Assembly (NCBI GenBank): GCA_003194525.1
Contig: NBIV01000162.1
Location: forward strand, 101,189 to 165,188
Source: Gracilariopsis chorda
Lineage: Eukaryota > Rhodophyta > Florideophyceae > Gracilariales > Gracilariaceae
DNA: 64,000 bases
Direction: 5' to 3'
The position numbers were made by a program, and so were the translations under genes. This document shows, in pieces, positions 2,406 through 64,000 of this stretch. The notes beneath the pieces are model-generated. The model worked only from the letters and a program-made list of their open reading frames with translations, did no database searches and was not told where the DNA came from. Position 1 is the stretch's first letter. Each line of letters begins with the position of its first letter.

Positions 2406-2416
2406 TCACGGGACGG

Positions 2417-33976: not shown

Positions 33977-33978
33977 TG

Positions 33979-34499: not shown

Positions 34500-36100
34500 T
34501 CCAGCTAAGTATCGGTAGCGTTGACCGCGAATGTTATACATCTGAACCATTTTTGTTCATCATTTCTTTCCGGTGTATCTCTGAAGAGTAGCTTTTGGGC
34601 ATCAACGAACTTTGCATCATTTAACAATGATCACGAAGCCAGTTTACGAGCGTTCATATGGCTTAGACTCCAACCTATATAGCAATCTATCCAGTACTGA
34701 GAATAATTGACAGGGGCACATCACTCTACGACGCGTTTCACAAGATGAAGGAGTAGATGAAATGGGTACTTTCACATTATCAAACGATCGAAATCGCTTT
34801 TGAAATAGTACTGTTCACAGTGCTGATAAAACTGCAGACATACATGCAAAGCTTCCCTAATTTGACCTCTGCTAAAATAGGACGCCAGCAGATGTCAACA
34901 ATCTTCACGAATTCTGTCCATCCTAATGGTAAAGCTTCGCATGGATGCTCATCCAATACGAGCAGACTGTAAGAGAAAATTAAATCCTTCACCTCAGCAG
35001 AATCCCACTTGGAAAACCCACCTGAGCGTCTTCGACGGCACTCCAACTGGCTTGCTGTACAATTCCCATACTATACCAGCTTTATATCAATAGCACTGAG
35101 CGATAATTTGCTGATGAAGTACGATTCCTCACAACTACTAATCCAGGAACGGATGATGTCCTTCAAAATGTTATAGAATAGATGCATTATATCAATAAGA
35201 AAGGATCTATATAGCACAATGCTTGATAGAGTGAACAACAGACTCCCTTCACTGATCTCTGTCTCAGTTTGAAGCAGTGCAGTTTCGTGGCCTCTCATCC
35301 ATAAAAGTTCCTCAATGGTGTTCCTACTTTGTCATTCTGGGCCAGACAGAAGTCTTGAAGGATGAAAGACCTGGCGAATACCCTCGGAGGTCCCCACATA
35401 ACATGGAAAGTAATAATGCCTGTGAGAAGCGGATCACACCCCAGACACCATACAGTACCGACAAGAAGCCTTTCCATGGTGACCGTTGACTCCCGGGACA
35501 TTTTCCACGGCCGGAAGATCCCCAGTGAACCGTAGTATGTGCACCCTAACATCTTCGTGACCCATCGTAGAACAGGAATTCTTTGCCCAATCCTTCGTTT
35601 TCTTATTCTTTCACTTCCTCAATGAGAGTTCCAAGAATGGACTGAAGATCTTCATGCTCGGTTGGGCCCTGTATGTAAGTAAACGGCATGAAGTTTCTCA
35701 TAAGGAAGCGTTTAGAGGGATGTAAGTTGCATGTTATCACTGCAATAGGCCAAATGCTGTGCGTCTGCATCTGAAATGCTTGAAACCCGTCCTTCGAGAG
35801 TGTGATGAACACGTCGTTCTTTACAACTTCAGCCCCACTATACTTGTCTGCTATTCTTCAGAACGACTGGGTATGGAAAAGTCACACGCTACATTTGTAA
35901 TGTCGTGCAGCCCGGAATGAAAGTACTTGTACATCTGCTGGCATTGAGTTCTGTCACGTAGAATTGATGCCAGCCGTCCACGGAGTGGGAACCCATGATA
36001 TAAATGAGGCCTTTTTTATCTTCAGTTTGTGGCCGCATGTTTCCACAGACTGAGAGGCGTCCTGAATTTGTACTAAGTCATTGGAATCTTCATTGAGATT
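34500..36100 (-). pseudogene. CACTA/EnSpm-like tnp2 transposase remnant
   Basis: The frame 35603-35812 reads FITLSKDGFQAFQMQTHSIW then QGPTEHEDLQSILGTLIEEV, matching the tnp2 core (leucine-rich lead, Asp-Gly-Phe, Trp-Pro-Ile, Gly-Pro-x-Glu/Lys). The frame 35071-35298 contains VLYRSFLIDIMHLFYNILKD, the tnp2 His-Leu-Phe block. The frame 34780-35046 has FSKWDSAEVKDLIFSYSLL, the downstream helix block. Fragments on minus up to about 36448 may be the N-terminus. Many stops break it. No CACTA termini were found, and copia-1 abuts the low-coordinate side at 34160. Confidence 0.7.
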
Positions 36101-36767
36101 GTTTTGATTACTTTATGTTCTCAACACACCAGCAACGTCTTCAACTAGAGAAGTTTCTACTAATGCTTGGTGATGTGCCCTGACAGCCAAGCTTTCGGTC
36201 TCGAGAGGACCGCAAGGAAAACTTCCGGACAATCCGCAGCACAGTAGACGGACATTTGCTATCTTCCTATGACTTACCGCAGTGTTTTGATTTACTTTTT
36301 CCTCTAGAGTAGCAGCGACAGCCGTACTGAGGAAACATACATGCATCGGCATCATATCTGGTTCCTGGAGCCAGCATACCACGAAGCAATCACTAGAGAT
36401 CAAAACGTGCATTGATAAAATGCAGAACGATGTACATGTCGATGCCATGGAGCCACATTTATATATTCGGAGGTAAGGATGGAGTAGATGCGTTTCATAG
36501 CGGCAGCAAAGACAAAGATTCTAGAAAAGGATTCCCTCTTCTGTTTCATCTTTCGTACATGACATGCTGTTTCATATCGTTTCATCTTTCCATTATCAGT
36601 TAACTCGCGTTAAATGGTGAACGCAAAGCACCTCTGCAGCAAACAAAAGGCCAATGCATAAACTTTGTTTCCCCGCTGCGTACTAACCTTCTTCCTACTA
36701 CATTCCCTTTTCGGTTACCTTCCTTGAGAATTCATTACTTTGAAGTCCGTATTGCACCAAGTACCGC

Positions 36768-37085
36768 ATGGCATCTTCGATAAGGGATACACCACTTGGG
36801 CGATTTCTTCAAGAAACCAAAGAGGACATAATCTGCACTTGGAGAGAGGATGTCGCGAAGATCAACAAGAGATTAGATTCTTTGAAGCCAACCGCCCGGC
36901 GTCTACCAATTCCAAGTGTGGTACGTGGTAAACACTTTGTGAGAGAGAGTAATATATCAGCACTGATGAGAGCTGCAACTGAGTACCATAATGCACTGAT
37001 TCTTGCGGGGAATAAGAAGTACATACAGTTTCCTGCTAAGGCTTCTGACGAAATGCTCAATTTGAAGCAAAGAATGCTCTTGTGA
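36768..37085 (+). CDS. Unrecognised 105-codon ORF beside copia-2
   Basis: An amphipathic, Lys/Glu-rich frame (GRFLQETKEDIICTWREDVA and KASDEMLNLKQRM). It ends 43 bp before the left copia-2 LTR. It may be a second ORF of the neighbouring DNA element that copia-2 interrupted. No family recognised. Confidence 0.3.
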   Translation: MASSIRDTPLGRFLQETKEDIICTWREDVAKINKRLDSLKPTARRLPIPSVVRGKHFVRESNISALMRAATEYHNALILAGNKKYIQFPAKASDEMLNLKQRMLL

Positions 37086-37127
37086 GCATTGTGATTGAGA
37101 AACTTGGAGCAAGCTACGTCTATGAAA

Positions 37128-37402
37128 AGTTGGGCAGACCAGTAGTAAGAATGTCTACGTTTTAGTAACACAAAAGTGTCCAGGAACGTAGTTTATCTCG
37201 TCCGCGATCTCTATCCTGTTCTCCCCCTTCCCTGTAACAAGTGGACGGATAATGTACCCGCTTAAATACGCATAGTGAACCAAAGCGCAAAGGAACGGAC
37301 ACTAGGCCAAGTGAACGTACAGACAAGCGCTGTATCGAAGTACACTAACAACAATATTGGGTGTACCAAGACTATCAGCGGCGGGAGCAATATCGATACT
37401 TA
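37128..37402 (-). repeat. copia-2 LTR (3' LTR in element orientation)
   Basis: About 275 bp, beginning AGTTGGGCAGACCAG on plus and ending near CGATACTTA. It aligns along its whole length with 42113-42386. Confidence 0.88.
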
Positions 37403-37441
37403 ACTTTCAAAATCTTCCCATTTTGTAGAAACCAGCAAACG

Positions 37442-38299
37442 TCAAAATAACGAAAACGATACCACAGAGTCTATTAACCCGTGTCTACTCGGTAGGCCGA
37501 TTGGATGAACGGGAATCGGAAGTGGTGGGGTCGAAAGGGAGTTTGCCAGAAAAAGCAGCAGTTCCAGAGCTTGGTTGAGAGGACTGTTAAGTTTCGTGAG
37601 CGAGTCGGCGAGGTTACAGTTTGCAGGAACCCAAACCATATGATTGACGTTTTGATTCTCAAACTCATAACGGATAACGCTAACGGCAGCACGAATAGAG
37701 CGGTCCAAGGCATTACGACATGTAGAAAGAGTGTCAAACAGGTCTGTAGAGTCCACTATCACAGATAAAAACACGTCCATATTGAACAACTTCGTGAGTG
37801 CTTTGACCAGCCTCTTACCTTCGTCAATAGCAGCACCAGCTGCAAGTATCTCGGCGGATCCAATAAACTTAACGGGGCTTCTAGATTTCCGAGAGGACCA
37901 CAAAAGCGTATGTAAGACAGAGTCCGAACGAATATCACCAAATAACAGTCCATAAATGTAGCCAAGCTGACCGTACTCGCACGGGCGACTGGCATCAGCA
38001 AACACAAGTACAGATACATTGAAGCTTCCTTTCATCGGCCGTGCGTAGAAAATGCATGTGTAGTACTTCTTTAGGCTTCGTAGTGTATTTATCTGACAGA
38101 TCAGATCCTTTACTTGCACAGAAGGGCCTTTCTGCTGAAGAGTGCTCGAAGCGATAGCGCAAAAGGGGGATATAGCTATACCAAGCCATCCGATAGAGCT
38201 GTTGGGGGAGCGAAATGCTGCAAGCTCCACATCGTTTAGCGATTCATCGTACTGCCTACGTCGCGTACGACCGAGAGGGAATGGTTGAAAAGAGTTCAA
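37442..38299 (-). CDS. copia-2 RNase H (open 285-codon frame)
   Basis: The RNase H fold begins with VLVFADASRPCEYGQLGYIY (first Asp), then GSAEILAAGAAIDEGKRL (Glu) and SVIVDSTDLFDTLS (second Asp), then WVPANCNLADSLTK, the standard last block with Asp. All catalytic acids are visible. It ends just inside the polypurine tract and the 3' LTR. The RT frame stops 65 bp before this frame opens, so a shift separates them. Confidence 0.8.
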   Translation of the reverse strand: MNSFQPFPLGRTRRRQYDESLNDVELAAFRSPNSSIGWLGIAISPFCAIASSTLQQKGPSVQVKDLICQINTLRSLKKYYTCIFYARPMKGSFNVSVLVFADASRPCEYGQLGYIYGLLFGDIRSDSVLHTLLWSSRKSRSPVKFIGSAEILAAGAAIDEGKRLVKALTKLFNMDVFLSVIVDSTDLFDTLSTCRNALDRSIRAAVSVIRYEFENQNVNHMVWVPANCNLADSLTKLNSPLNQALELLLFLANSLSTPPLPIPVHPIGLPSRHGLIDSVVSFSLF

Positions 38300-38363
38300 T
38301 TTGTCATCGCCGGGGATAATGACTTCGAAGCCGTTGGTTTCACTGATGGCAAGGCCGTAGTAC

Positions 38364-39251
38364 TCAAAACAACCCAGTCCAATTTACGATGGTACCGAGC
38401 TCGTAAGAGCGTTGTATCTTAGATATTATTTGATCGATAAGATAGCGAGGTCCTACAAACAACACGTCATCCACTACTCTGACAGCAGCCATTTTCACAG
38501 CAGTTTTGTTGATGCGGTAGAACAGTTGTGGCACATACACAAGCTGGATGAATCCAAGAGAACTTAACAGATTATCACTCAACGCCTGCCACTTCGCTGA
38601 AGCGTTGACCAGTCCGTAAGCGGAAGCCAAAAGCAACCAGTAAAAACGATAGCGTATAGTACATTCGCGCGGCAGGACGACATAAACATCTCTGGTTGCG
38701 TCTCCTGTCTGTAGAAAGGCACTCTCGAAATCGATTTTTGCCAAGATCCATTTGTTAACAAGGGCAAGTGAGAGTAAAAGGCGAATCCCAGTAAGGAGAC
38801 AGGTGGCAGAGTCGGTTTTCAGAGATAATTTGTCCTTGTCTTCGTTACCGTGTGGAGCAATACGGGCTTTGAGAACGAGGGAATAATCGTCGCACTTCTT
38901 GAATCGGTAAAAGACGTGGCTGTTGATGACATTTGCCCCTTCAGGGATCTTTGAGATGGGAATTTCTAGCACAGTTTTCTTCAAAGCCATTTCTTCCTCG
39001 CGGTAAGCGTTCTCCGTTACAAACGATGGTAGGCCATGAGCTTGGTGTAACATAAACTCCTTACACCAAAAAGCTTCGTAAAATTCGCGAACATAGTTTT
39101 GCTGGATTCTATCAGATTCTTGGTTGGGTGACACCTGGACTTCGTTGCTTTGAACAGGATGAACAACGGGGGTTACCATCGGTGGCGGAGGCAGTATTGG
39201 AATCTTCAGAGGACTGCTTGGAAATGGTCGGAGAAAAGGAGTTAGGGCCAT
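38364..39251 (-). CDS. copia-2 reverse transcriptase (open 295-codon frame)
   Basis: After a Pro-rich N-terminal stretch the RT begins. HVFYRFKKCDDYSLVLKARI is the fingers block, KIDFESAFLQTGDATRDVYV is motif A with its Asp, FYWLLLASAYGLVNASAKWQ is the primer-grip side, and RVVDDVLFVG is the catalytic Asp-Asp box (usually Tyr-Val-Asp-Asp in copia). The frame has no internal stop. It overlaps the Tudor-containing frame out of phase, so a frameshift lies upstream. Confidence 0.8.
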   Translation of the reverse strand: MALTPFLRPFPSSPLKIPILPPPPMVTPVVHPVQSNEVQVSPNQESDRIQQNYVREFYEAFWCKEFMLHQAHGLPSFVTENAYREEEMALKKTVLEIPISKIPEGANVINSHVFYRFKKCDDYSLVLKARIAPHGNEDKDKLSLKTDSATCLLTGIRLLLSLALVNKWILAKIDFESAFLQTGDATRDVYVVLPRECTIRYRFYWLLLASAYGLVNASAKWQALSDNLLSSLGFIQLVYVPQLFYRINKTAVKMAAVRVVDDVLFVGPRYLIDQIISKIQRSYELGTIVNWTGLF

Positions 39252-49311: not shown

Positions 49312-51302
49312 CTATGCATCCTTCTGGTTGTATTCCTGCGGTATCGGCGCTACAGGATCTCCCTGTACGTCCAGGAGCTCGACGGTATCCCGTGAGTCTT
49401 CGACCATGTTTACCTGAAGTAACTTAACCGGTGTGATCAGGGGGGTCACGTACTTGGAGATCACTAGAGTTCCAGTGTTCTTCGGAGGAAACGTCCGACA
49501 GAAACAACCCTCGGCTCGGCACACCTGATAATTGGCTTCCCTTCGCCCCATAACTTTCTTTCGGATGTCCTCAGGCATGAACTCTATGCAGTCACATGGG
49601 CGGGCCATAGAAAGGCAAATATAACAGCCCTGATTGCACTTCGTAATGACGTCCTTCCTGCAGGCAATTAAGGAGTACCGGGGCGTAGCTGGGGCCGATG
49701 GGGTTGTCGTTCCTGACGAAGAGGCCGAAGTCGCTCCTGACGCAGCTGAGGAGAAGCTTACAGCGAGAATGTCTCTGCTGTCAGAATAACCCACGGCCGA
49801 GTCTGGTTCTGGTGCAGACACTACCATGTGGGTCTTCGCTCCTTCAGTTAGGGGCTTAGGGCGACCCGTGGTATCTGCGTCACCCGGCGGACGGGAAGTA
49901 CTATAGGTCTTGCCGTATCTCTAAGCATACTTCACCAATTGACGCAGCGGTAAATCAGGGTGGGAAGTATTGTGGTTTCGGACATGAGTCTGTATCTCTG
50001 GGAGTAGCCTCGTAATAAAATGCCGCTTAAGTCCCGCACCTGCGGGCTCCAACCCAGAGTTGGTTCGCGTAGTACATCTCGGACATGTCAAAACTCTGGT
50101 GATAACCAATTACGTCCTCGTTGGCATCCATTATGTGATAGTCAGTTGCATACGTTTCCAACAAGTAATGGACAACCTCTGGGTACGTCCACACGAGTTC
50201 CAGATCCCGGGCATCGATGGGGTTAGCCAAGCCGGAGATCTTGGCGACCACTTGGTCTTTCGCCTGTCCACTCAGGTCAAACTGGAAAATATAAAGCGCA
50301 GCTCCCTCATGGACTCCATTTTTGGTCACAGGCCACCTGGAACGAGTTCAGAAACTTAAGGATCGTAATGGGGTCCCTTCCGAAGAATTTTTCCGAGATA
50401 TTCAGTTGCATTCTCTTCGCCCACCTGGCTATCTTTTTGGCTACCGAAACGATGTACCGCGTAGAGCAATTCATCAAGCGCTACGTGTTCACGCCTTCGA
50501 CGTTCTGGAAAATCTCATTAGTCCTGACTGGATGTTTGAGGCCCTGAACATCCGCCTCATCCGTATCGGTGTCGCAAGAATCCGACGACTCTGAATGGTC
50601 ATCGCTCGAGTCCGAGTGGTGCCTCTCCTGATGGTTCGTTCTCGACTTCTGCCATATGTTACATCTTTTCTTCCTAGGGGTCTCGGTATTTACGACATGC
50701 TGTTGGGCGAGCTCTTCATCGTCCTCAAGGTACTCATCTGCGTATCAAACGCCGTGCCGTCTATTGCCCTTACCTCCCGCGCGACCTCTCTGCCTCAAGA
50801 GTCTTTCTTCTCCTGGCGGTATGCAACCCAATGAGCCTTCCCGTGATGCACTCAGGCGAGAAGCTAGGCCTATAGCTGCTCTCTGAGGTTCTGTATATCC
50901 AATGGTAAACTTTGAGAGACAGCCCGAGGGCTGTAAAGTTTGCCTGCCTGCCTGCCTGGTGATTTCCCCTTGAATGGTCATGGCAAAAGACTCCACGAAG
51001 ACGAATTACTGGACAACCGGAGAGATCAACTGGTATGCCAAAGAGGAGAGGCGTTCCCGTAGTCCCCTATCCAGTTCATCGTTGAGGATTTGCTCTACTT
51101 TTCCCTGGCACCGAGAGCAAAGTTGCGGCCATACGAGACCGGTGACATCGTCTACCATACGTGGGGTGGATGCGGTGGCAGCTACGTCCTGAGGCTCTTC
51201 TGCATCATTCCTTACACCTTGCAGAAGACTTAGCTGGTTCATTTTCTTGCGGAAGCGAGTCACGAATTGCGAATCTCTGGTTATCCTTTCCGGATTGTTC
51301 AC
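49312..51302 (-). pseudogene. gag: gypsy-2 Gag, broken
   Basis: Pieces at 51302-51006 (N-terminal, QFVTRFRKKMNQLSLLQG), 50996-50745, and 50329-50027 (YIFQFDLSGQAKDQVVAKIS then YPEVVHYLLETYATDY) follow the layout of gypsy-3 Gag. Ser/Asp-rich low complexity lies between them. The frame 49827-49312 contains a degenerate knuckle (GCYICLSMARPCDC) aligned with the intact CHLCYAHGHTSPQC of gypsy-3. At least four frame changes or stops. A (TGCC)4 microsatellite lies inside at 50941-50958. Confidence 0.75.
50941..50958 (+). repeat. (TGCC)4 microsatellite
   Basis: Four tandem TGCC units plus TG, inside the broken gypsy-2 gag. Confidence 0.9.
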
Positions 51303-51309
51303 AGGGTCT

Positions 51310-52160
51310 GTAACGCGTCCACCATAGGGACTGGTGGTAATTCAGTGGTCACTATTATTGTACGACAGGTCGACCAATGGAGTGAAAACGTCTGTGGGTG
51401 GTGCAGGCGCACCTCGGGTTTCTTCTTGGTATTCTTTTCTGAGCATGGAGGGTTGTCCATACTGGCGTTGTTGCTTTTGATCCAGTTGCGTCAGCTAGTA
51501 CTCAAATAGTAGAGTTCCTAGGCGGTACGATATTTTTTTAAAGTCCAAAACGGCTGTTCCTCTAGGCGTCTAGGTCAGCAGACCAGTTGCAGTAGAATAA
51601 TATGTTCTTTGCCAAACTAGGATAGTAGTGCACTGAGGGGTAGTAGCGGCAGAAAGCCAGTTACTGAGGTAGTAGTCCACTGCGTCTAATGGTGACGCGG
51701 GCACTAACTGGCCGTGACGCGCAATGAGCAGGGGCTATCTCAAGTCCCTACAGGTTGGGAGAATGGTAGTGATGGCTCGGAGGCTATGGCATCTACTAGC
51801 TGCATACGGTAGCAAGAAAAAAGAGATGGTGCTTGTCTTTACTCTTCGCAGTTCGGTGGCACTCAAGGCAACCTATATGGTCGACGAGGTGCTCTGAACC
51901 GCGGCAACTACTTCAAACATTTCATTAAAATTACTACATAAACCTGAGACCATTACCTTCGCACTCGGGAGTTCCCCTGGTATCTGCTTTACTGGCACCC
52001 GACTTTGCCACATGGAGCAGACGAGCCACCAATGATCCGAAATCTGTCAGCTCAGGCCACTGGTTCTTTCAGACTACCTCACTTACCCAATAGTCATTCT
52101 CCTACACGAAAAAGCTATTCACAAGACCAACGCATATTTCTGCAAAACTAAGCTGACTGC
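51310..52160. other. Unassigned; expected site of gypsy-2 5' LTR
   Basis: No gene. Several TAGTAG words between 51620 and 51690. I could not define LTR ends or match a partner. Confidence 0.25.
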
Positions 52161-52169
52161 CTCATTCAA

Positions 52170-52870
52170 AGAGAAATCGTTTACTTGAACCCAGCTTTCT
52201 CGTGGACGCCGTCCCACTCATCGTTCCGAAGCCAAGAATAAACTGCTTACGACTCACTCTAGACCTCCGCCACGTTAACGAATTCACTGTCTAGCACCAG
52301 TGCTCCATGCAAACAGTGAAGAAGAACTTTTAACGCACGCTTGATCGGAACTGTTTGCCACAGTCCACCTCACGCATATCTACTGGCAGTTCCCGCTTAG
52401 TCATGGCTCTCTGGCGCTTCAGACGTTCATTACTTAGTACAACAAATTCGCTCCAACGCAAGTCTTACATGGGACAACGAAGGCGAGAACACACCTCCAG
52501 CCAGTGCTCGCTGATATGTTTTCAACACATCTCCGTGAACTTCTCTTTTACTGGCAAAAAGACACTCTGCTGCATAGTAAGGCTGTTTAGAACCTCTTGC
52601 AAGAAATCAAAAAGCTGTTCATGGTGTGCCCCACATGTCCCATCCGCCTTCATCTAAAGAAGTGCATTCTATTTGCAAGTTCGTAAGGAGGTGTTACCGA
52701 ACTGTCTCCGTGTTTGGAGGAAGGTCTGATGTGACAAAGTTAGATGGTCTATTGCGAATGAAGCTCCCATTCCATGGAGAACACTTACAGCAGTTCTTAG
52801 GCAGACCGCAATGGGTTAAGATGAGTATCTGAAACTTCTCCAACCGTGCCCTCTCTTAGCACCCGCTCCT
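52170..52870 (+). pseudogene. Relic reverse transcriptase of another gypsy lineage
   Basis: In one plus frame with several stops the sequence reads VPLIVPKPRINCLRLTLDLR, then VNEF, HIYWQFPLSHGSLALQTFIT, QVLHGTTKARTHLQPVLADM and FYWQKDTLLHSKAV. It ends with LHLKKCILFAS. These are RT blocks in order (fingers, motif A, B, C). The motif A Asp reads His (ATVHLTHIYW) and the Asp-Asp box reads Gln-Lys-Asp, so it is long dead. It is distinct from gypsy-1 to -3. The rest of the element was not found. Confidence 0.7.
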
Positions 52871-52879
52871 CCAGAAAAG

Positions 52880-53776
52880 ATGCTTGAACGCCGGCAAACG
52901 TACAAAGAGTTGAGTGGCGAACGCGGAGTTAAGTGCCATTCAATGGTCAGAATCAGAGGAGCAGGCCCTTCAAGCAGGCAAAGAAGCACTTGCAACTACC
53001 GTCACCCACGAGCAACAAGACGAGAGCCACAGGCTTGTCGCATACCGGGATGCATCTTAAGCCACCTGGTTGGGAATCAATATGCAATTGCAGCCATCCG
53101 ACCTCACCGAACCACATGAAAAGCAATGGAACAGTCCTTTTTCCTTTTGCCCTGGTTTGTTCAACTGGCACGCATATGTACTGCTCTGTAATGTAAATGG
53201 AGGGGGTTTCAATCCCGACCACTCTACAGAGGGTGGAATGCCTCGTTGCGACATCATCCTATTTCTACCTGTACACTGACCACAACAATCTTGAAGACCA
53301 CGTCCTGGCAGAGGGTTGTTTTGGGACTCTATAGTTTCTTCCAGTTGCAATGGAGACTCATATATGTTCATACATAAATTTCCCCTATACGGATTGGGCC
53401 ATTTGTAAGTCTTGGTAGGCCCTACACGCCAGTAGTAAATGTGGGACACGAGGTCTTTGTGGCACTTGTGGGCAAGGATCAGTAGGCAACGGATGGTAAC
53501 AGTACATTTATTTATTTATATAATTATTAAGTTATCACAGTAAAGAAGCTACACTACTTAGGGGCGTTCTACGAGTTGATGTGGCTGATAAACAAAAACA
53601 GGAAAGTTAGTCTAGACCAATAGGAAGCATCCACGTCTCAGAAGATTATTTCAAAGTCTTCATCTTGTCGGCAGGGCGAAGATTTCCGCCGACAAGGAAA
53701 CAACGGCCGTTGCATTGCATAAACCCTCTGACACCGAAAGAACTCCAGTTGTGTTCTTCCTGTCGATAAGAGGGCA
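52880..53776. other. No recognisable gene
   Basis: Short frames on both strands with no motif. An AT-rich run (TTATTTATTTATATAATTATTAAG) lies near 53510. Possibly the 3' side of the relic gypsy and the edge of Harbinger-2. Confidence 0.25.
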
Positions 53777-55147
53777 ATGAATGGCTCACAAGCGCAATAT
53801 CACAACTCGAACGCTCGGTCAAAATCTGGACACAACCAAGACAATGTTTTGAGCCACAACGCCGGTAATGTCACCCCAAACACCGACCCTCTCCATGCCA
53901 ATCAAACCGTACATCCCACTACCCGTCATAAAACAGTTTCTGAAGCATTTCAAATGCTCACTGATGCTTCCTTCGACAACAACCAATGCAAGCAAGCACT
54001 AAAAGCAATGAAAACTGTTGGAGCTCACAACGCGAAGCTTGATACAAAGCGAAAGGTGATAGCTCAGAAAATGGTACAGAAGCATATAAAACTTAAGGAA
54101 GTGAACGATTTGATAGCATCAAATGCCGCTAATGACAGCAATATTACCGTTTTTCGTCGACTTCAATCGACAACAGTAAGAATACGACGAGCGGAAGACA
54201 AACCTGAGGTCATAGAATACATACTAGGAGACGCACCAAATACTGTTGATGGAGAATATGTGATGAATAGCTCAAATATAAGTGAACCACAGCCGACATT
54301 GAGCGTATCAGTGAATGGAAGGCGTCCTGCTTTTGAAGTCGCCGAATTCTGTAGACTACTCCATGTTCTTGCAAACACAAGAATGACAGGTACGCGAAAG
54401 AAGTTAATGCAATGCTACGATCGGGAGTAACTTGATCATGAGATAACCGATCCGTGGACAGAAGAAATTGCTCCTCTTTTTAATGATTGCCAGTTTAAAC
54501 CAAGGGCAAATACACGGTTATCGGGAGGTGTGACACTGAGTGATATTTGCAATATTAATCCTGCACTAAGACCTCATTTACGTGATGGAGGTGTCTTGAA
54601 AAGAATGCTTGGGGAATTCAAGAGTTTATATGGCACTTGTATCTCTCGATATGAGGCTTCTGGGCAAGGAGATCCTGAAGCGTTTCCAACATTTGCTAAC
54701 GGGAAGTCATATATTTTGTATGCATTTTGCTCTTTAAAACAACACCCGATTCTCCAGCCACTCGCAACAAGGGCATTGGATAGTGAGGCACAAAGGGAGG
54801 AAGGAGTTGGTCGTGGATTTGGTGGATATGGTTTTGGGGGTCCAGAGTTTCGAGCGCACAACAAAAGAAGGAAGTCAAACAATCAGGAAATTAATGTAGT
54901 GGGAGTGGGTAGTCTCGTGTAGGCATTGCGGCCTCCTGATGGTAGCATTTCGAGAGAGCTACAAGTTGCGGAGAGAGATAAGATGCGATTTGAGGCTCTT
55001 GACGGACAGGCGCGTTCGGCGTGTTCTACGCTGAACGCTATTCCAAGGACGAAAGAAATGCTACAGCAGGTATCAAATGATGATGACAAAGCAGTGTTTC
55101 AAAGAGTGTTGAAGAAACTTATGGGTAATTTGGGTTCAACAGAGTAG
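53777..55147 (+). pseudogene. Accessory ORF of Harbinger-2, two in-frame stops
   Basis: One reading frame of about 457 codons is cut only by TAA (54428-54430) and TAG (54920-54922); three segments in the same phase join across them. It has a polar N-terminus (Asn/His/Ser-rich), a helical middle (KLDTKRKVIAQKMVQKHIKL) and a Gly-rich stretch (GVGRGFGGYGFGGPEF) followed by basic residues (NKRRKSNN). The C-terminal helix reads ERDKMRFEALDGQARS. It diverges in layout from a transposase on minus, as Harbinger accessory genes do. DNA-binding role is inferred from position and the basic patch. No clear Myb motif seen. Confidence 0.5.
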
Positions 55148-55949: not shown

Positions 55950-56640
55950 GTTCAGCGAGAGAATCTCTAATCACACTGGTGTCTCACCTCCACTGTCGTG
56001 ATCGTCTGTTATCTCTTTCAGTGTGTAGCATATCTTGAAAGTGAACTATTGGGGAGCCTCTTACACTGCTCAGTTCATGAGTTGGTATCATATCAAACAG
56101 TGACCCGTCGGCATTGTCGATTAGGAAATTGTGCAGCTTTACTGCCACCATAATTATAAGTGTAAACTTCGCAATGGGATACCGTAGTGCCGATCAAAAT
56201 ATTCCAAAGCGAGAAACTAACATGCCGAATGCTTGCTCGGCACAAATCCGACAAGAAGCATGATAATAATTGAATGCATCTTGATTCCCAGTTAGTCCTT
56301 TACCAGAATATGGCGTTAGAAGTCTTCCATCATTAGAGTACGCATCGTCTGCGACCACGGTGGCCCAGAGCGGAAGAAAATCACTTTTTAACAAGTCTTA
56401 AAGCCGTATAGCAGCCAAAGCAGTCGAATCGTCCGTACCCCCCGCGTGCCGAGCGGATATAAGTGAAAACTTGTAGTTTGCTTCTACTGCTGCTTGCACA
56501 ACGATGGCAAAGAATCCTGAAGTGCAACGCCCTCAGGGAGGGATTCTAGGTACTTGAACGCTTTCCCGATATTATCGGTTGTGTAGTGTGTATATGAACT
56601 ACGCCCCACAATGGTGGGTATGGACACGTGGGACACGGTT
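55950..56640 (-). pseudogene. Harbinger-2 transposase, C-terminal part, truncated by gypsy-3
   Basis: On minus the sequence reads SGFFAIVVQAAVEANYKF, then LISARHAGGTDDSTA (second catalytic Asp region), VVADDAYSNDGRLLTPYSGK, DAFNYYHASCRICAEQAFGM (catalytic Glu) and KFTLIIMVAVKLHNFLIDNA. This is the C-terminal half of a HARBI1-type DDE transposase. A stop lies in the middle (about 56400). The N-terminal half with the first Asp is missing on the high-coordinate side, where gypsy-3 starts at about 56674, so it probably resumes beyond the window. Confidence 0.8.
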
Positions 56641-56673
56641 TTGGGTCAATTGGCGGTTGGCCACAGTAGTGGA

Positions 56674-57324
56674 TGTTGCCACGGAATGTGGAGTATTTTA
56701 GTTAATTTTATTTATTATTTTCACACCCATTTCTGGGAAGCTAGTACTTAGTGCGACGGCGCACTGCCGTCGCACCAGTAAACCTTCCCCAACAAGGGAC
56801 CCCAACCTGGGGAATTGGCTCTGAGCTTTACCGCCTCCGCGTGTTCTCAACTCCTCCTTGGAGGGAAGCACCGTAGTGTACGGAAGTTCACCCCCCTTGC
56901 ACATCTAAAGGAGACCCATCATTGGGAGTACTAATTGTTCCAATCATATTGGTGTTTCGCCCTGTATAGGGAGTCCTGTCCACCGGCATTGCCGTATCTA
57001 CTCGTCGCTCTCGCGACCCACTCGTCCTTCCTCTTTCCCCTTTTTAGGGTAGCACCTCCCGCTATCCGCGGCCCTCGTGTGCGCATCCGCTCACACACCC
57101 CCACTTACGTGGAAACATACCTCTACTGAGGATCACGCCCCGCTCACGCGGATACCGATTCTTCGCCTTCACCTCCCTGCGCGAGTCGCGACAGGTGTCC
57201 CTGGTCTTACAAACCGGCTTCGCCGTGACACCTCTGGGAGGGCTCTACCCAACTGGGTTCACCTCGTGAGAGGAAGATCCCGGACGTCTTTCGGTGTTTT
57301 TCCCCTTTGGGGCATTGCACCACA
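56674..57324 (+). repeat. gypsy-3 5' LTR (bounds tentative)
   Basis: Starts TGTTGCCACGGAATGTGG, like the gypsy-1 LTR start (TGTTGCGGAATGTG), and ends ...TGCACCACA before a TGG primer-site candidate. Contains a 10-bp perfect hairpin GTGCGACGGC/GCCGTCGCAC (56752-56776). The partner LTR is outside the window, so ends are not proven. Hairpins continue across the proposed boundary into the leader. Confidence 0.5.
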
Positions 57325-57327
57325 AAG

Positions 57328-57340
57328 TGGTCTCCTGACT
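57328..57340 (+). other. Possible primer-binding site of gypsy-3
   Basis: TGGTCTCCTGACT three bases after the proposed LTR end. The TGG start suits a tRNA CCA tail. The tRNA was not identified. Confidence 0.35.
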
Positions 57341-57429
57341 TAGAATCGGTTTTTGCTTTCCCTCTTACGAGGTTTGTTTTCATTCACCGGAAGTTCCGTG
57401 ATCGTTTCCCGTCGTAACGGTATTTTCTC

Positions 57430-59604
57430 ATGTCGAGAAATCCCTCCGACGCGGAGCCAGTGGTTACGCGTAGTCGCTCCCGCGACAACGCGGACACTTC
57501 CGAAGTTCGGTTCGTACCCCGTATCCCTATACGGACAAGTTCCAGCCGTGCTGGCGCCGCTTCATCGCGGAATGATACCCCCGACCGGGAACCCCGGAAC
57601 CTCCTTTTGCCCTCGTTATCACCCCCGCAGGGGAATGCAGCATCGACTCCGGCTGTTGCCGCAGTGCCCCAGGCACCCCGGCCTGCTCCCGCTGTCGCGG
57701 CTTCAAGCCCCCGTGGAACGGGCGATAACACCCCCCAGGGGACTTCCCTGGAATCCCAGGTCCGCGCTCTGTGGACCGCCCATGACACCCTTGTAGGGAA
57801 ACTAAAATCCCTCCAAGAGGTGGTCTCGGCAACCCCCGTAGAGGAGGTCGCCGAGGAACTCCGTATTTTACGGTCTAACGTCAACTCCGTGTTGGAGAGT
57901 TTGGGACAACCCGCCGCCTTCATCGAAGGAGTTGAAGCCCGATTTGATCGGATTGGTGCCCGCCTGGAGACGCTGGAGCAGTTCGTCCTCATGGACAAAC
58001 CATCCCCGGGTGATCCGGTAAACGAGGCATCGCACAACGACCAGGTTGCTGGGAAGAAGAAACGCCGTCACCGACGGAAACACCACCGAAAATATTCGGA
58101 CTCCGATTCTTCGACATCGTCGGACTCATCCCGAAACCATTCGGTTAGCTCGAGCTCCTCGGACTCCGACTCGGAGGACGAGAAGCGAGGCTACTCCTCC
58201 CGCTCGAAGCGGTCATCGGCCACTGAAGGTGTGGTCCGAACCCGCCAGAAGGGGAGAAGACACCCCGGTCTCCGGGAATTGAAACCGACAAACCCGGATT
58301 ACCGGAAGCTTTTATCATACCGGTACTACCGGCTTGAAGATTCGTCACTTGGACGTACGCCCCGTGGTACGGGAAAGGTGCGAGAATGCATTAAGCGAAT
58401 GCAGCTCTCGCTCCGCAACCAGTATTTTACTGGAGAGGACCCAGTCCTAGTACTGGATTTCCTATCCCGCTTTGTAGCGGAGGCCGATATCCTCGGTATG
58501 AATGAGGGACAAGCCTATTTGGCTTTACCGTATTTCTTACGGGGAGTGGCCGAGGACCAATACACCTCTGTCCGAGGATCTTCTCGCGCCTCCGAGGGAG
58601 GAGTTACTTGCTGGCCGGAGGCTGTGCAGTATCTTCTGCGCTCCTACGCCACCAACACCGCTATTCAGCAGGCTATCCTCGCTTTGCGAGATACACGCCA
58701 GCGTGCTGGAGAGACCGAGACCGATTACTCGGTGCGCCTTAACAAGGCTTTCCACAGATGTGGTAACGTATACCCCGCTGGGGAGCGCAGTACCATGTTC
58801 ATTGATGGTCTTGACCCGGCAATCCGGAGTTTAGTTACCCGTTATCGGGAGGACAAGCGAAGGATCACCTACCTCGAGCTGGTCCAACACGCTCGAGCGG
58901 AAGGGGATGCACTTCGTGCAAGAACTCCGAACAATCGGTCTAAATCCGCCAAGGCGTTGTTGCTGGAAAGCGAAGCTTCCTCTCTCCCGCTCACCGCGGA
59001 TGGGAACCCTGGACAGGGATTTGATACCGTGCATTTAGCGCAGGGGGATGGTGTGTCGATACCCACCAGTGAGTTACCGTCAACGACGGAGATGAACCAT
59101 GATACGGGAACAGAAGATCCCGTTCTATACGGTGGTAACAGTCGGGTTCAACCCCAACGACTCCCGTTTTCAAACGGTCAATCCCGTTATCAACGGCCTG
59201 GATGGACTGACACCCGCCCTGCGGTTCGCTTCTCCGATACTCGGAATAATAATCCGCGTGTCGCGGTGCTGGCTCTCATTTGCCACCTGTGCTATGCCCA
59301 TGGACATACCTCTCCTCAGTGTATTTGTTCACTGAAGGATATGGCCAAGGTGGTGGCAAATTATGAGGCCCTCACTCCAGAGGAGAAACGTTCCGTCCCG
59401 ACGGCTTCCTACCTCCGTGCTAAAACGGACTTTTCTCACGCCCTACCACAGACCCCGCGTGCGCAGCAAGCTTCATACACCCCGATTCGGGAGATCACGC
59501 AACCATCCGTTGCAACCCCCGCTTATGCGGATAGAAACCCCCGTCAACGGGATGAAGCACTCGTTGTCGAGGAAACCAACCCACCGCCGAAGGCGGAAAA
59601 CTAA
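57430..59604 (+). CDS. gag: gypsy-3 Gag, intact 724-codon frame
   Basis: The ATG lies inside a perfect hairpin (TTTCTC ATGTC GAGAAA). The N-terminal 190 residues are Pro/Ala/Ser-rich with a helical stretch. Residues ~200-260 are a basic then Ser/Asp-rich tract (KKKRRHRRKHHRKYSDSDSS onward). The capsid region follows (residues ~300-500): ECIKRMQLSLRNQYFTGEDP, AVQYLLRSYATNTAIQQAIL, ERSTMFIDGLDPAIRSLVTR and ITYLELVQHARAEGDALRAR. The knuckle CHLCYAHGHTSPQC lies near residue 620. It ends in TAA (59602-59604). Large for a gypsy Gag. It assembles the particle and binds RNA. Confidence 0.9.
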   Translation: MSRNPSDAEPVVTRSRSRDNADTSEVRFVPRIPIRTSSSRAGAASSRNDTPDREPRNLLLPSLSPPQGNAASTPAVAAVPQAPRPAPAVAASSPRGTGDNTPQGTSLESQVRALWTAHDTLVGKLKSLQEVVSATPVEEVAEELRILRSNVNSVLESLGQPAAFIEGVEARFDRIGARLETLEQFVLMDKPSPGDPVNEASHNDQVAGKKKRRHRRKHHRKYSDSDSSTSSDSSRNHSVSSSSSDSDSEDEKRGYSSRSKRSSATEGVVRTRQKGRRHPGLRELKPTNPDYRKLLSYRYYRLEDSSLGRTPRGTGKVRECIKRMQLSLRNQYFTGEDPVLVLDFLSRFVAEADILGMNEGQAYLALPYFLRGVAEDQYTSVRGSSRASEGGVTCWPEAVQYLLRSYATNTAIQQAILALRDTRQRAGETETDYSVRLNKAFHRCGNVYPAGERSTMFIDGLDPAIRSLVTRYREDKRRITYLELVQHARAEGDALRARTPNNRSKSAKALLLESEASSLPLTADGNPGQGFDTVHLAQGDGVSIPTSELPSTTEMNHDTGTEDPVLYGGNSRVQPQRLPFSNGQSRYQRPGWTDTRPAVRFSDTRNNNPRVAVLALICHLCYAHGHTSPQCICSLKDMAKVVANYEALTPEEKRSVPTASYLRAKTDFSHALPQTPRAQQASYTPIREITQPSVATPAYADRNPRQRDEALVVEETNPPPKAEN

Positions 59605-60491
59605 CTGAGGGAGTCTCCCCTTTGGGAGAGGCGTCCTCAAAAACGAGGCTGTTGGCGCCCGAGGCGTCCTCGCCTCGCTCCCCGGTGAAAGTCCTCTCGA
59701 GGAAAGACACCGCTGACGCGGACTCTGCGCACCTCGGTGTGTTGCGTCGCCCGTGGATACGGAGTAAAAATCCCCGGATTCCCGGTAGAGTCTTGGTCTT
59801 GGCCAAGCGCAATTATAAGGTCTATGCCGACCTTGGCCTTGACCCCCAGTTTATGGTGAGGTTTCTCACCGTCCTGGATACAGGTGCAGGCCCCAACTTT
59901 GTCGTGGAATCATTATTACCCCCGCTTGTGCGGTCGCGTATCCGCTCTGACGCGGTCCCCGACATTTCGGATGCGAACAACAATCCGTTACAAACGGTGG
60001 GCACAGTGGACCTCGTCGTGAGACTTGGTACATCTGTGGTGAAGTTGGACTTCATCGTTTGCCGTTCACTGGCAGCACCAGTCATACTGGGATGTGATTA
60101 CTGCGACAGATTTGTCGACGCAATCAGGCCCCGCCTCAGGCGTGTAGAACTTGACGACGGATCGTCGGTTCCGATTGTTCGCCGCCCGCTAAAGCGGTCC
60201 TCTCGGAAACAAGTTCCGCTCCCTGCTGCGCAGGAACCACCGCCCGCGTCCCGCGAGTCCACCAAGCTCCGCGTCGCTGCCTCGGTTTCTATACCGGCTG
60301 AGTCCCAAGTCTGGGTACAGGTAAATTCCCGTCAACACGGTCTTCGGGTTATACAACCCCTCGCCTCGTTGTACGAGAAATCCCAGCTGGCGCTGGCTAA
60401 TGGAATTGTCTCCATTTCCCCGGATGTTCCTTTCCGGATATTGGTTGCCAACCTTGGCAAACACCCCAGTATCTGGTCAAACACCAAGTAA
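59605..60491 (+). CDS. pol: gypsy-3 protease and pol N-terminal region
   Basis: This frame is open in the -1 phase relative to gag and overlaps the gag end, so a -1 ribosomal shift could join them; the first Met is at 59622. The protease site reads FLTVLDTGAGPNFVVESLLP (about 59860), with an intact Asp-Thr-Gly, and later APVILGCDYCDRFVDAIRP, the second conserved block. A C-terminal linker (QVWVQVNSRQHGLRVIQP, then FRILVANLGKHPS) leads toward RT. A shift at about 60488 moves the frame. Confidence 0.85.
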
Positions 60492-60514
60492 TTGGGAGTG
60501 TAACCCCCCATCCT

Positions 60515-61721
60515 ATGGGAATGCTGCCAACGAAGATGACAGCCGCCGATGTACTCGGAGTTACCACCTCTTCTGAGGAGTTCACCCGCCGTCCGAAGAC
60601 GTCAAGTCTAAGGAGGGGGAGGAAACCGCTACTTCAGCGTCGAACATACCGAGTAACTCGGAATTGCGAACCACACCTGTTCCACAGGACAATGCTCCAT
60701 CGAACAATGACCGGATTGATCCGGAAAAAGCACTTGAAGCGCTGGACTTCAGCCACGTGCCAGAGTCGCACCGCGACAAACTCCGTACTATGTTACGGGA
60801 ATTCACCACAATGTGGGATGGCTCGCTTGGCGAGATTGACGCAACGGAACACCGGATCGATTTAATCCCCGGTGCGCGACCGGTTGCACAACCCCCTTAC
60901 AGGGCAGGTCCGAAAGCTCGGGAAGAGGAGCAGTCCCAGGTGGACAAGATGCTCCGCGCAGGTGTGATTGAGCCCGCTCAATCGCCCTGGGCATCCCCAG
61001 TTGTACTGGCTTTAAAGGCTGACGGAACCTGGAGGTTCTGTGTCGACTACCGCCGGCTCAATGCCGTGACTGTTAGGGACACGTACCCCATCCCTCGTAT
61101 GGACGAGTGCATTGACTCCCTTGGAGACGCCACCGTGTTCACGGCCCTTGATGCCAATTGGGGATATTGGCAAGTACCTGTCAGACAGGAGGATCGCGAC
61201 AAAACCGCATTCACCTGCCATGCAGGAACGTACCGCTTCAAGCGGATGCCATTTGGGTTAACCAACGCCCCGCCACCTTTCAGCGTGCAGTAGATATTCT
61301 ACTCAACCGCTTTAAGTGGCGGAGTTGTCTGGTCTACCTTGATGATATTATCATCTTCTCCAACTCGTTAGACGACCATCTCACTCACGTCCGAGACGTG
61401 CTGACCGTACTCCGCGATGCGGGAATTACCCTCAAGTTGAGGAAATGCGAGTTTTTCACAGATACTGTGAAGTATCTGGGTCACATTATCCGTCCTGGAC
61501 GGTTAGCGATCGAGAAAGCTCGAGTCAAATCCCTCGTTGAGGCGAAAGAACCCCGTACTCAAACGGAACTGCGCTCCTTTCTGGGGCTGGTCAACGTCTA
61601 TCGACGGTTTATCCCGAACTTTTCGGATACTGCAGCGCCCCTGAACGCGTTGTTGCGAAAGGGGAACCCCCAAAACTGGGAACATTTACGCCCGAGCAAT
61701 CGGAAGCTTTTAACTCCTTAA
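60515..61721 (+). pseudogene. pol: gypsy-3 reverse transcriptase, frameshifted
   Basis: 60515-60865 and 60664-61293 overlap in different phases (shift near 60590). The second holds the RT fingers and palm: PWASPVVLALKADGTWRFCV, VFTALDANWGYWQVPV (motif A), KTAFTCHAGTYRFKRMPFGL. A shift near 61270 in a C-rich run moves to 61158-61721, with TFQRAVDILLNRFKWRSC and the active-site box LVYLDDIIIFSNSL, then KYLGHIIRPG and RSFLGLVNVYRRFIPNFS. All catalytic residues are present; only phase changes break it. Confidence 0.88.
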
Positions 61722-62338
61722 AGGAGGCTGTCACATCAGCACCAATCCTACATCTCCCAAAACTTGGGTTGCCATACTCCGTAGATACGGACTCGAGCGA
61801 CTACCAAGTCGGGTGTGCTCTTTTTCAAACCACCCCGAGGGGAACGACATCCAATTGGTTATTGGTCACGTTCGCTCAATGTTCATGAGCGGAACTACTC
61901 CGTATCGGAGAAAGAGTGCCTCGCTGTCGTATGGGCGATGACCACTCTGCGCCCTACCTTATGGGAATTCACTTCACCTTGTACACGGATCATTCCTCAT
62001 TGAGGTGGTTGATGAATATCTCCGACCCGTCGGGACGCCTCATGCGCTGGAGACTCCGCCTCGCGGAATATGACTTTCAAGTCATTTATAAAAAGGGTGC
62101 GCAGAACACTCAGGCCGACGCTTTATCGCGGTTACCCACAAGTGGGGAAGCACTCCCAACGGAGGATGATGAAGTCCCATGCTTCATGGCTATAGACCCG
62201 GATGATCCGGAACATGCCGTCGAGGCTAGGCCAGAAACCTGGGACGAGGATGCTGATTTTGACGAACTACTCGCATCGCGAGATAAATCTGAGAACCGTT
62301 ACCGGGAAACTTTGTACCGGTATCACCGGAAGAAATGA
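61680..62338 (+). pseudogene. pol: gypsy-3 RNase H, frameshifted
   Basis: After a shift near 61680 in a GGG run the frame reads TFTPEQSEAFNSLKEAVTSA and [20 protein letters not shown] (first Asp). Shifts near 61845 follow, then [20 protein letters not shown] and [11 protein letters not shown] (Glu). Near 61960 another shift leads to [20 protein letters not shown] (second Asp), DFQVIYKKGAQNTQADALSR (third Asp) and an acidic tail. The domain is complete apart from phase changes. Confidence 0.85.
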
Positions 62339-63530
62339 TCCGAGAACAATTCGGCGACCCATTCTGTACGAGAATTCGTGCCCGTATCAACGGTGGTGAA
62401 GATCTCCCTTTCGGGGTAAACGACAAAGGCTACCTCGTAAGAAAGGTCGAAGCCCGCCCACAGATTGTGGTACCACATTCCCTGCAATCGCGGGTGTTAC
62501 ATCTATCACACTACGCCCCCATTGGAGGTCACCCAGGTGGGAGGAAACTCTACTAACCCTGCGAAGGGATTTCTATTGGCCCGCAATGGCGGTGGATTGC
62601 TACGCAACTGTGCGGTTTTGTAGCGAATGCGCGAAGAATCGCGTCAAAACTCCGCAAAAATGCGAAGAAGATGAAACTATTCCCCGCAAGGGCGCCGCTC
62701 GAGTTTATCGCGATCGATATTCTCGGACCATTACTCACCACGAAACGTGGAAACAAGTTTCTACTTGTCATTACCGACCGCTTTTCTAAGCTGGTACGGA
62801 CTGTCCTCTTCGGAGGATAACCGCTCTCACGGTGGCCCAGGCTCTGGTGACGCACTGGATTTTTGTCTACGGTCCCCCTGTAGAGGTGCTCTCTGACAAC
62901 GGGAAGCAGTTCGTGAGCAAGTTTCTTCCAGGATGTTTGTCGCATCCTGGATGTCAAGAACTTGTTCACGACTACCTACCACCCCAGTGTAATGGGCAAG
63001 TTGAACGGTTTAACCGGACGTTACTCCGCGGCGTTACGTTCCTACGTCGCTGACCACCCAACGAATTGGGATCTCTACGCTGATGCGGTAACCTACGCGT
63101 ACAATACGCAGGTACACCGGACTACCGGAGTTTCGCCATTCGAGTTAGTTCTATCTAGAACACCCCCGCCTGTGGCGCTGGAACCCCAAGCTACTTGGAC
63201 AATTTCCCATCTGTGTATCTACCGGCAGCAATGGAAGCGATGGCTTTCCAAGCTGGTCCCCGCTGCGCGGAAGTCTATGGCACGGCCAAGCCGCTTACAA
63301 GCGGGATTTTGACGCTCGCGTGCGAGGAAAACCATCCCCGATTCGGGCAAATAAACTACGTCTTCATCAGGAAGGAATACTACAACCCGAACGGGAGAAG
63401 CGTCACAAAACTCTCGCCTGTGGCGGATGGACCCTTCAAGGTGATCTCTGTTAACACCGACACTGTCGTGGTAGAGATGGGACACGCACGAACGGATTTC
63501 CCGTGATCGTGTTGTCCTCGCCCCTCCTCC
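62335..63530 (+). pseudogene. pol: gypsy-3 integrase, frameshifted
   Basis: 62335-62556 is the N-terminal segment (FGVNDKGYLVRKVEARPQIV then SRVLHLSHYAPIGGHPGGRK with the zinc His residues). 62586 onward has RFCSECAKNRVKTPQ with both zinc Cys. The core begins LEFIAIDILGPLLTTKRGNK (first Asp, about 62700-62760), then VLSDNGKQFVSKF (second Asp, about 62890) and NGQVERFNRTL (Glu, about 62995). 62962-63312 gives SYVADHPTNWDLYADAVTYA and RTTGVSPFELVLSR. 63195-63506 holds the C-terminal SH3-like block (VADGPFKVISVNTDTVVVEM). About seven phase changes. The triad is kept. Confidence 0.82.
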
Positions 63531-64000
63531 CTCGTCAGATGTAGTCCTGGATCCAGGCAACCCCGTTTCTACGGACTCCGCTACACCGGAACAATCCGGG
63601 AGTACTAGACCTACGGTACTACCACACCCCAGCCGGGACTCTCAGACCTACCGACTCTGTCGGACTCACCGGCTCAGCCGGGTAATTCGGGCCCCTCAGC
63701 GCCCGCCCCTACCACGTCTGCCCCACTGGCGCGCATCTATACCGCCAGGCGGGAATGTTATCCCTTATCCCGCGCTCCGTCTAAGGAGGGAGGAGAACAC
63801 TCGTTTTCGAGGAACGATATCACCGTCGCAACGGGAAACACACTGTAACATACGGAACACTGACCGTGGAGCACGGAGTATGTCACGCGACACTAATCCC
63901 CCGTTCCCGGGCAGTGCTGTGCAACAGAACCAGACGCACAGGCCCTGCAAAAGCGGCAAATACACCGTTTGTCCCGGGAAAACGAGAAGCCTCACTCCAA
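63507..64000 (+). other. gypsy-3 Pro-rich pol tail and 3' region
   Basis: After one shift near 63508 a plus frame stays open from about 63513 into 63840 (APPPSSDVVLDPGNPVSTDS, then Pro/Arg-rich sequence). It is a plausible C-terminal extension of integrase. The hairpin pattern continues, including CCTGGATCCAGG (63546-63557). The polypurine tract and 3' LTR are not recognisable before the edge. Confidence 0.5.

Follow-up and report, generated by a model that had tools for sequence, protein, structure and literature searches.

Why should a mobile element be written as a chain of small perfect hairpins? The question is raised by gypsy-3, a retrotransposon with long terminal repeats (LTRs) at the right-hand end of a 64,000-nt stretch of the red alga Gracilariopsis chorda (contig NBIV01000162.1, positions 101,189 to 165,188 of the forward strand; hereafter the window). 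An initial annotation had drawn attention to perfect stems, typically of the form CCNN...NNGG, recurring roughly every 20–40 bases over positions 56674–64000 of this window. Selection proves to keep the paired bases, which suggests that the element carries, along its length, a structural signal of a kind not described before.

A dense chain of short hairpins

Over 56674–64000 we counted 141 stems of at least 5 bp with loops of 3–8 nt, against 37.4 ± 6.1 in 30 dinucleotide shuffles, and 242 non-overlapping stems of at least 4 bp with loops of 2–5 nt cover 3082 of the 7327 bases, bearing out the density first reported. The annotated limits need correction: the element starts with its LTR at 56518, and 64000 is the end of the contig, not of the element. 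From 56518 to 64000 (+ strand) the visible chain comprises 247 non-overlapping stems of at least 4 bp, where 30 shuffles average 93. When the parts are counted separately, 28 fall in the LTR, 3 in the leader, 76 in gag and 138 in the rest; control stretches gave 12 (the 1 kb before the LTR) and 52 (50001–55000). Hairpin density in the element is about 30 per kb, against about 12 by chance. Coding and non-coding parts both take part, as had been claimed, and all three codon phases are used (8/11/11 in gag, 18/14/11 in the pol gene of copy L002). A scan of the window in 32 segments of 2 kb (15 shuffles each) gave z = 7.9–11.3 for the four segments over 56–64 kb; among the other 28, one (4001–6000) reached z = 4.4 and the rest were at or below 1.8. 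Segment 4001–6000, in a region assigned to no element, has a mild excess of the core shapes defined below (24 vs. 16.1).

Four core shapes stand out over 56674–64000: stem 5/loop 3 (61 vs. 6.2 shuffled), stem 4/loop 4 (77 vs. 22.7), stem 4/loop 3 (58 vs. 23.6) and stem 5/loop 4 (28 vs. 5.9). Together they number 229 in the visible element, against 57.9 on average and 76 at most in 200 shuffles. A small extra excess was seen for stem 5/loop 2 (19 vs. 5.8) and stem 4/loop 5 (33 vs. 17.0), and stems of at least 6 bp were fewer (29 vs. 10.5). Loops, announced as mostly of 2–5 nt, are mainly of 3–4 nt.

We also took CC..GG pairs at every distance and then checked the inner letters for pairing. The spacings CCN8GG (111, 48.6 expected) and CCN9GG (124, 48.8 expected) were prominent, distances 5–7 and 10 were milder (74–87), and distances of 11 or more lay at background. 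Inside CCN8GG the first two pairs were Watson-Crick in 60% and 59% of cases (25% expected) and the third was at background, and inside CCN9GG three pairs were Watson-Crick at 49–56%; that is, complementarity within the frame runs at 0.49–0.60 against 0.25 and ends at a loop of 3–4 nt. Frames of the opposite letters, GG..CC, had no comparable inner pairing. Fully paired CC..GG forms numbered 54 against 2.6 and 42 against 0.7, and over 56518–64000 there were 100 strict CC..GG hairpins (12–13 nt, all Watson-Crick) against 4.3, with no more than 12 in any of 500 shuffles. The annotation had guessed at fewer than ten CC/GG-ended stems by chance and many dozens present, and the counts agree with it: across the four core classes of gypsy-3 (family A below), CC stem ends number 123 against 6.9, and GG ends 7 against 6.0.

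Protein, codons and composition do not account for the excess

We used a stringent shuffle that holds protein, codon usage and dinucleotides fixed, scoring stems of at least 5 bp. The excess survived it in gag (46 vs. 13.7, z = 10.7) and in pol, whether of copy L002 (76 vs. 18.0, z = 12.9) or of copy L006 (72 vs. 16.3, z = 14.0). Of the sister gypsy families in the same genome, C, B, B2 and D gave z = 4.8, 5.6, 5.7 and 4.3, the figure for D coming from one locus, with two other D loci looking alike. Family E reached z = 2.3 for stems of at least 5 bp and 0.4–0.7 in the core shapes, and family F did not exceed 1.2; under dinucleotide shuffles alone, F representatives gave z = 1.1–2.8 and E 1.9–3.9, and both families may hold a trace of the excess. 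None of three copia elements and four kinase genes rose above z = 1.1, although under a simpler synonymous shuffle one copia class reached 2.3. The host genes compared, 4 of 4 kinase genes, thus lack the excess. The impression that other elements look different is correct within the window and for the three copia loci but not genome-wide, since the chain recurs in gypsy families B, C and D.

On the strength of these shuffles we reject chance and nucleotide or dinucleotide composition as causes, along with codon usage and the encoded protein. Insertion of ready-made palindromes was likewise rejected: hairpins in the pol frame of family A meet alignment gaps in 4 of 97 cases against family B and 3 of 95 against family C, and random 13-nt windows do so in 5.1% and 6.5%. 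At 61341–61355 (+) the hairpin GATGAT-ATT-ATCATC lies on the YLDD active-site codons of the reverse transcriptase; it arose by substitution and codon choice, not insertion.

Stems are conserved, loops are free and positions turn over

To measure selection we compared two mutually mosaic subfamilies, A and A', over 3 kb (L076 vs. L086), where they are 5–29% apart per 250-nt window. With hairpins defined in A, A' had changed at 82 of 792 stem positions (10.4%), 69 of 296 loop positions (23.3%) and 339 of 1896 linker positions (17.9%), the stem contrasts with loops and linkers giving P = 2e–7 and 5e–7; stems thus diverge 0.58 times as fast as linkers and 0.45 times as fast as loops. With hairpins defined in A', the counts were 88/808, 64/287 and 338/1889. 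Among 87 A hairpins followed into A', 58 had identical stems, 7 kept at least 4 pairs, 2 were fully compensated and 20 were broken. Of 396 pairs, 334 were unchanged and 14 had changed doubly to another Watson-Crick pair (1.7 by independence); in the other direction double changes were 3 of 402, against 1.7. A similar pattern appeared in the LTR of a further subfamily (L063, 84.6% identical), where beyond the first 208 nt 18 of 200 stem, 19 of 78 loop and 64 of 317 linker positions had changed (8/171, 13/66 and 80/358 in reverse); the alignment of CCAAT-CAT-ATTGG with CCAAT-TGC-ATTGG is an example. The substitution pattern shows that stems are under purifying selection and loops are not, and, because stems change less than loops or linkers between subfamilies, it is selection that keeps the pairing, and not a copying quirk alone.

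Individual sites are not permanent. Of 95 A hairpins, 21 had a counterpart at the same place in B, where chance would give 6.6; for A in C the figures were 23 of 96 (7.4 by chance), and for B in C 19 of 86 (6.6). Single hairpins are thus selected and yet turn over between families, with size and density kept. Treated as a mutation-selection equilibrium, the excess corresponds to a log enrichment of about 3.2 per CC..GG hairpin; if it is such an equilibrium, weak selection on each hairpin suffices, as for codon preference.

Sister families share the size and vary the letters

Judged by their sequences, the sister gypsy families B, C and D and a locus from another sample, L087, share the hairpin size, and B, D and L087 spell it with other stem letters, as if in dialects. 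Family C resembles A (CC stem ends 36 vs. 1.7), and families B and B2 place the CC one pair further inward. In family D, stem 4/loop 4 (50 vs. 8.4) and stem 4/loop 5 (26 vs. 7.6) are in excess, and 31 of the 50 stem 4/loop 4 hairpins close with a G-C pair and 27 of the 50 have a loop that starts with A. L087 is one contig in a metagenome bin named Robiginitomaculum, presumably a eukaryotic contamination of that bin, with a reverse transcriptase 68% identical; it has stem 5/loop 3 at 21 against 3.1, and no excess of the CC..GG form (2 vs. 1.9). Our tree misplaces L087, probably because its longest frame lacks the matched domain, and was not used for it.

Seven further loci from the same scan (L088–L094, 35–57% identical) had no excess of core shapes, and four more from the same two genomes (L097–L100) had no clear excess; L095 and L096 are the same places as L087 and L088. 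One of the seven, L091, from a bin named gamma proteobacterium symbiont of Bathyaustriella thionipta, has 45 stems of at least 5 bp against 23.7, partly of 6–7 bp and unlike the core shapes. Families B, D, E and F were first met through integrase matches. Three other loci turned out to differ from what they had seemed. L044, of a distant gypsy lineage (integrase 24–31% identical to the others), was dropped as an independent origin of the trait, because most of its hairpins fall in the final 1.3 kb, which is distinct from the adjoining integrase sequence. That 1.3 kb, read in the integrase orientation, holds 12-nt hairpins, mainly stem 4/loop 4, and may be the LTR and leader of a further hairpin family. 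L063 proved not to be a whole element: it is a divergent LTR, and the integrase next to it, on the opposite strand, is unrelated. L078, considered as the body of an L063 element, is largely another family on the opposite strand.

Which molecule carries the hairpins

Pairing in the chain is strictly Watson-Crick. Among A hairpins at –3 kcal/mol or lower, all-Watson-Crick forms number 116 against 17.1, and G.U-containing forms 18 against 12.2. Mid-stem mismatches, pooled over eight sequence sets (L044 among them), were near background for every type: G.U 330 against 320 (ratio 1.03), A.C 383 against 380 (1.01), like-with-like 726 against 723 and others 724 against 690. Stem changes between A and A' led to G.U 8 times and to A.C 10 times (14 and 18 in reverse). 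An apparent antisense enrichment in G.U versus A.C was discarded as a guide to strand; it is an effect of outer versus inner pairs and of flanks by position. Folding energies in 120-nt windows (61 windows in A), compared with shuffled sequence, gave mean sense/antisense z of –1.40/–1.23 for A, –0.44/–0.59 for B, –0.51/–0.74 for C, –1.12/–1.24 for F and –0.18/0.01 for a kinase gene. The G.U test and these only mildly low energies speak against plain RNA stability as the target. The annotation's suggestion of selection for element-wide structure is upheld insofar as stems are conserved, loops are freer and the excess goes beyond codon shuffles, but not for RNA stability as such.

The flanks carry a strand signal. 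On the sense strand of A, the positions just outside the stem avoid G and T, and G.U extension at the flanks (window, tail and A' summed) occurs 31 times against 58.5, with A.C at 76 against 78.5; over all eight sets the figures are 84 against 116.4 and 140 against 143.6. Strict Watson-Crick pairing suggests either DNA or a reader that demands a regular helix, and the flank preference suggests the sense strand; on balance, and without certainty, we take the acting molecule to be sense RNA contacted by a reader. Gaps between A hairpins are commonest at 5–14 nt (97 of 219), reach at least 30 nt in 57 of 219 and have a longest value of 97 nt. Linkers under 5 nt are rarer in A than random placement gives (21 vs. 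41.8 in the window), which would be in keeping with a footprint; B and C lack this scarcity.

What may read the chain

Our best explanation, which we hold tentatively and with less than even confidence, is that selection maintains the chain as an array of sites, hundreds of redundant hairpins of 12–13 nt, which the Gag of the element itself probably recognizes when its RNA is packaged. Each site would consist of 4–5 Watson-Crick pairs and a 3–4 nt loop in the element's own nucleic acid, and the sites would work by number and not by place. A family-specific reader would contact them, most likely Gag with its zinc knuckle and basic region, and Gag would thereby gather and condense its own RNA into particles in preference to host RNA and the RNA of sister elements. 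An element-encoded reader is favored by the fixed size, the family-specific letters, the redundancy, the coverage of LTR, leader, gag and pol alike, and the lack of the chain in copia and gypsy F; we infer Gag as the natural candidate. In gypsy-3 its gene, encoding 724 aa, lies at 57430–59604 (+). The translation has a basic stretch followed by a Ser/Asp-rich one (KKKRRHRRKHHRK...) at 58054–58215 (+), a putative nucleic-acid contact, and at 59281–59322 (+) a CX2CX4HX4C motif (CHLCYAHGHTSPQC), which we take to be a zinc knuckle and a candidate hairpin reader. Across 21 aligned Gag proteins, C621 and C631 of the knuckle are invariant and C618 and H626 nearly so. PF03732 (Retrotrans_gag) was matched by 11 of these 21, the window's own Gag not among them, and 6 of 41 gag homologues come from Agarophyton chilense.

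Several observations weigh against this explanation. Stems in the first 208 nt of the LTR are no more conserved than the rest (4/54 stem, 2/22 loop and 7/132 linker positions changed, first direction). Between families, at 66–70% protein identity, conservation of stems over linkers at third positions was significant in 3 of 6 comparisons (A-C, B-A and C-A; not A-B, B-C or C-B). In mid-stem, G.U counts as a mismatch, a strictness for which an RNA reader has no need; only A has a strong strand signal, B and D being neutral and L087 opposite (G.U flanks 16 vs. 10.4); and L087 has no clear stem-letter preference. Yeast Ty1 and Ty3, moreover, are described as transposing without most of their internal sequence when proteins come in trans (PMC4974528).

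The main rival, itself rather doubtful to us, needs no reader: dense hairpins would act as a structural shield that cuts the free single strand open to small RNAs, nucleases or antisense, with stems kept short since the ribosome and reverse transcriptase have to melt them. It would account for coverage of LTR, non-coding and coding parts, for redundancy and turnover, for selected stems with free loops and for a commonest gap of 5–14 nt, but the gaps of 30 nt and more leave many stretches of small interfering RNA (siRNA) size open, equally stable G.U-containing hairpins are barely enriched, the marked preference for CC over GG stem ends in A is something a shield does not need, and copia and gypsy F of the same genome manage without a chain. 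That the hairpins act instead in single-stranded DNA (minus-strand cDNA or strong-stop DNA), compacting or protecting cDNA in the particle or guiding strand transfer by nucleocapsid (NC), we consider unlikely. Strict Watson-Crick pairing on either strand fits, G.T being no pair in DNA, and so do the hairpins of the LTR and the loops of 3–4 nt, which suit DNA hairpins; the flank preference of A, however, is specific to the sense strand.

A host protein or machine (RNA export, editing or an anti-transposon factor) could also be the reader, which strikes us as quite improbable: a hairpin size common to several families of one genome is in its favor, as is a relative from another sample with the same size in other letters, but an element-encoded reader would better account for the family-specific letters and for the missing chain of copia and gypsy F. 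The annotation's idea of a factor binding each stem is compatible with the fixed size and varying letters and would be favored by them, with a single host factor fitting less well than an element-encoded one. A purely mutational origin, in which template switching by reverse transcriptase or quasi-palindrome correction perfects imperfect stems without benefit, is very unlikely. Its attractions are that stems are strictly perfect, that double Watson-Crick changes are more frequent than independence predicts in one of the two directions, with no clear surplus in the other, and that mosaic subfamilies show copies to recombine. Neutral correction, however, predicts equal rates in stems and linkers and mostly double changes, neither of which fits the A–A' comparison (stems at 0.58 of the linker rate, 334 of 396 pairs unchanged and 14 double-changed); the LTR beyond its first 208 nt shows a like conservation of stems, and terminal letters and size are specified. 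Template switching, proposed in the annotation, is thus not supported as what maintains the hairpins, though it may contribute to their origin. Returning to a reader encoded by the element, the broader proposal is of a new layer of sequence information: throughout one retrotransposon lineage a hairpin code, fixed in size and with letters particular to each family, would extend over coding and non-coding parts and be read by Gag, by which sister elements in one cell would distinguish their own RNA. This seems to us possible and rather unlikely.

Comparison with known systems

Genome-scale ordered RNA structure (GORS) of some RNA viruses, recognized by excess folding energy, resembles the chain in running along the whole genome beyond local signals; in gypsy-3 the folding energy lies only a little below that of shuffled sequence, to much the same degree for sense and antisense, and what recurs is a small module. 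Some organelle genomes have dispersed short palindromes, which are regarded as inserted copies; gypsy-3 is alike in having many short palindromes, but its hairpins arise by substitution inside open reading frames. Chromoviruses are Ty3/gypsy elements with a C-terminal chromodomain, and gypsy-3 conforms to them (LTR with TG..CA, gag, RVT_1, RNase H, chromodomain); we know of no chromovirus with a hairpin chain. Among the matches listed in a search of the open-access literature (titles and the starts of abstracts), no element with such a chain was described. In Rfam, 56000–64000 had no match up to E = 0.1, and in viral contigs no relative was confirmed.

Single-stranded RNA viruses have multiple dispersed packaging signals, which are sequence-structure motifs with a shared recognition motif (PMC6281560). 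Like them, gypsy-3 has many stem-loops with a shared motif across the element (the 100 strict CC..GG hairpins) and conserved stems. Unlike them, it is an LTR retrotransposon, whose hairpins come at about 30 per kb, nearly uniform in size and strictly Watson-Crick, with letters that vary by sister family. Ty1 and Ty3 are LTR elements whose Gag likewise selects genomic RNA, and in the passages concerned Ty3 nt 429–4979 are dispensable in trans and the cis-acting sequences of both elements lie at the ends; those on their packaging RNA describe no element-wide hairpin array (PMC4974528).

The element and its surroundings

Read from its domains, gypsy-3 is a Ty3/gypsy chromovirus, because open frames of the C57 copy match RVT_1, RT_RNaseH and Chromo; an integrase core was not matched in the two C57-copy frames scanned. 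Full length is about 11.5 kb, from positions in the C57 copy, whose 5' end is extrapolated, and in that copy the hairpin chain goes on to the 3' LTR through the part absent from the window. The 5' LTR (56518–57324, +, TG...CA), with its own chain of 28 non-overlapping short stems, matches the 3' LTR of the C57 copy over 807 nt at 99.6%. It includes the hairpin CCCCA-ACC-TGGGG (56800–56812, +; stem 5/loop 3), unchanged in the L063 LTR, and the longest of the stems listed (56751–56775, +; 10 bp, loop 5), unchanged in both divergent LTRs aligned. The latter is possibly a separate local signal (polyadenylation, dimerization or packaging start). A probable primer binding site, assigned by position only, begins with TGG right after the LTR (57328–57345, +).

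The pol part with reverse transcriptase (RVT_1) lies at 60664–61293 (+). In the window copy pol is broken over several frames, and a 982-aa open frame is found in 3 of 7 loci of other copies. The reverse transcriptase piece is 92% identical to an Agarophyton chilense protein over 53% of its length; with the gag homologues of that species, this match would by itself make a gracilarialean red alga the very likely host. Relatives in metagenomes amount to 1813 reverse transcriptase proteins at E = 0.001. A genome search with 1 kb of pol gave 1112 candidate places, and all 40 that were scored (the window's own included) were 96–100% identical. Copies of gypsy-3 are mosaics, near-identical upstream, then of two types up to 29% apart, then 97–100% identical toward the 3' end, as seen in L003, L006 and L007 vs. 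L002, L004, L005 and L008, in the window from about 61950 onward and in L076 vs. L086; this pattern suggests recombination between subfamilies.

Elsewhere in the window, 1–2286 (–) and 31389–39251 (–) hold a second gypsy element (protease, reverse transcriptase, zinc knuckle) and copia pieces, neither with a hairpin chain. Two tandem arrays were noticed in genome G000: contig C183 (74551–127225) has eleven Retrotrans_gag matches, all in the same orientation and about 4770 bp apart except for one interval of twice that length, in which either a retroelement or parts of one are repeated in tandem, and contig C383 (36202–50459) has six copia reverse transcriptase matches on one strand, spaced about 2680–2790 bp.

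Implications

How LTR elements select their own RNA and avoid mobilizing relatives is an open question. In this lineage some distributed structural signal is legible in sequence alone; it can be given a value for each hairpin, and families that use different letters can be set side by side. Here a single structural rule has shaped many kilobases, the LTR and the choice among synonymous codons included, a point to bear in mind wherever synonymous sites serve to infer selection. Should a capsid reader be at work, the idea of dispersed packaging signals would be extended to retrotransposons, in an extreme variant.

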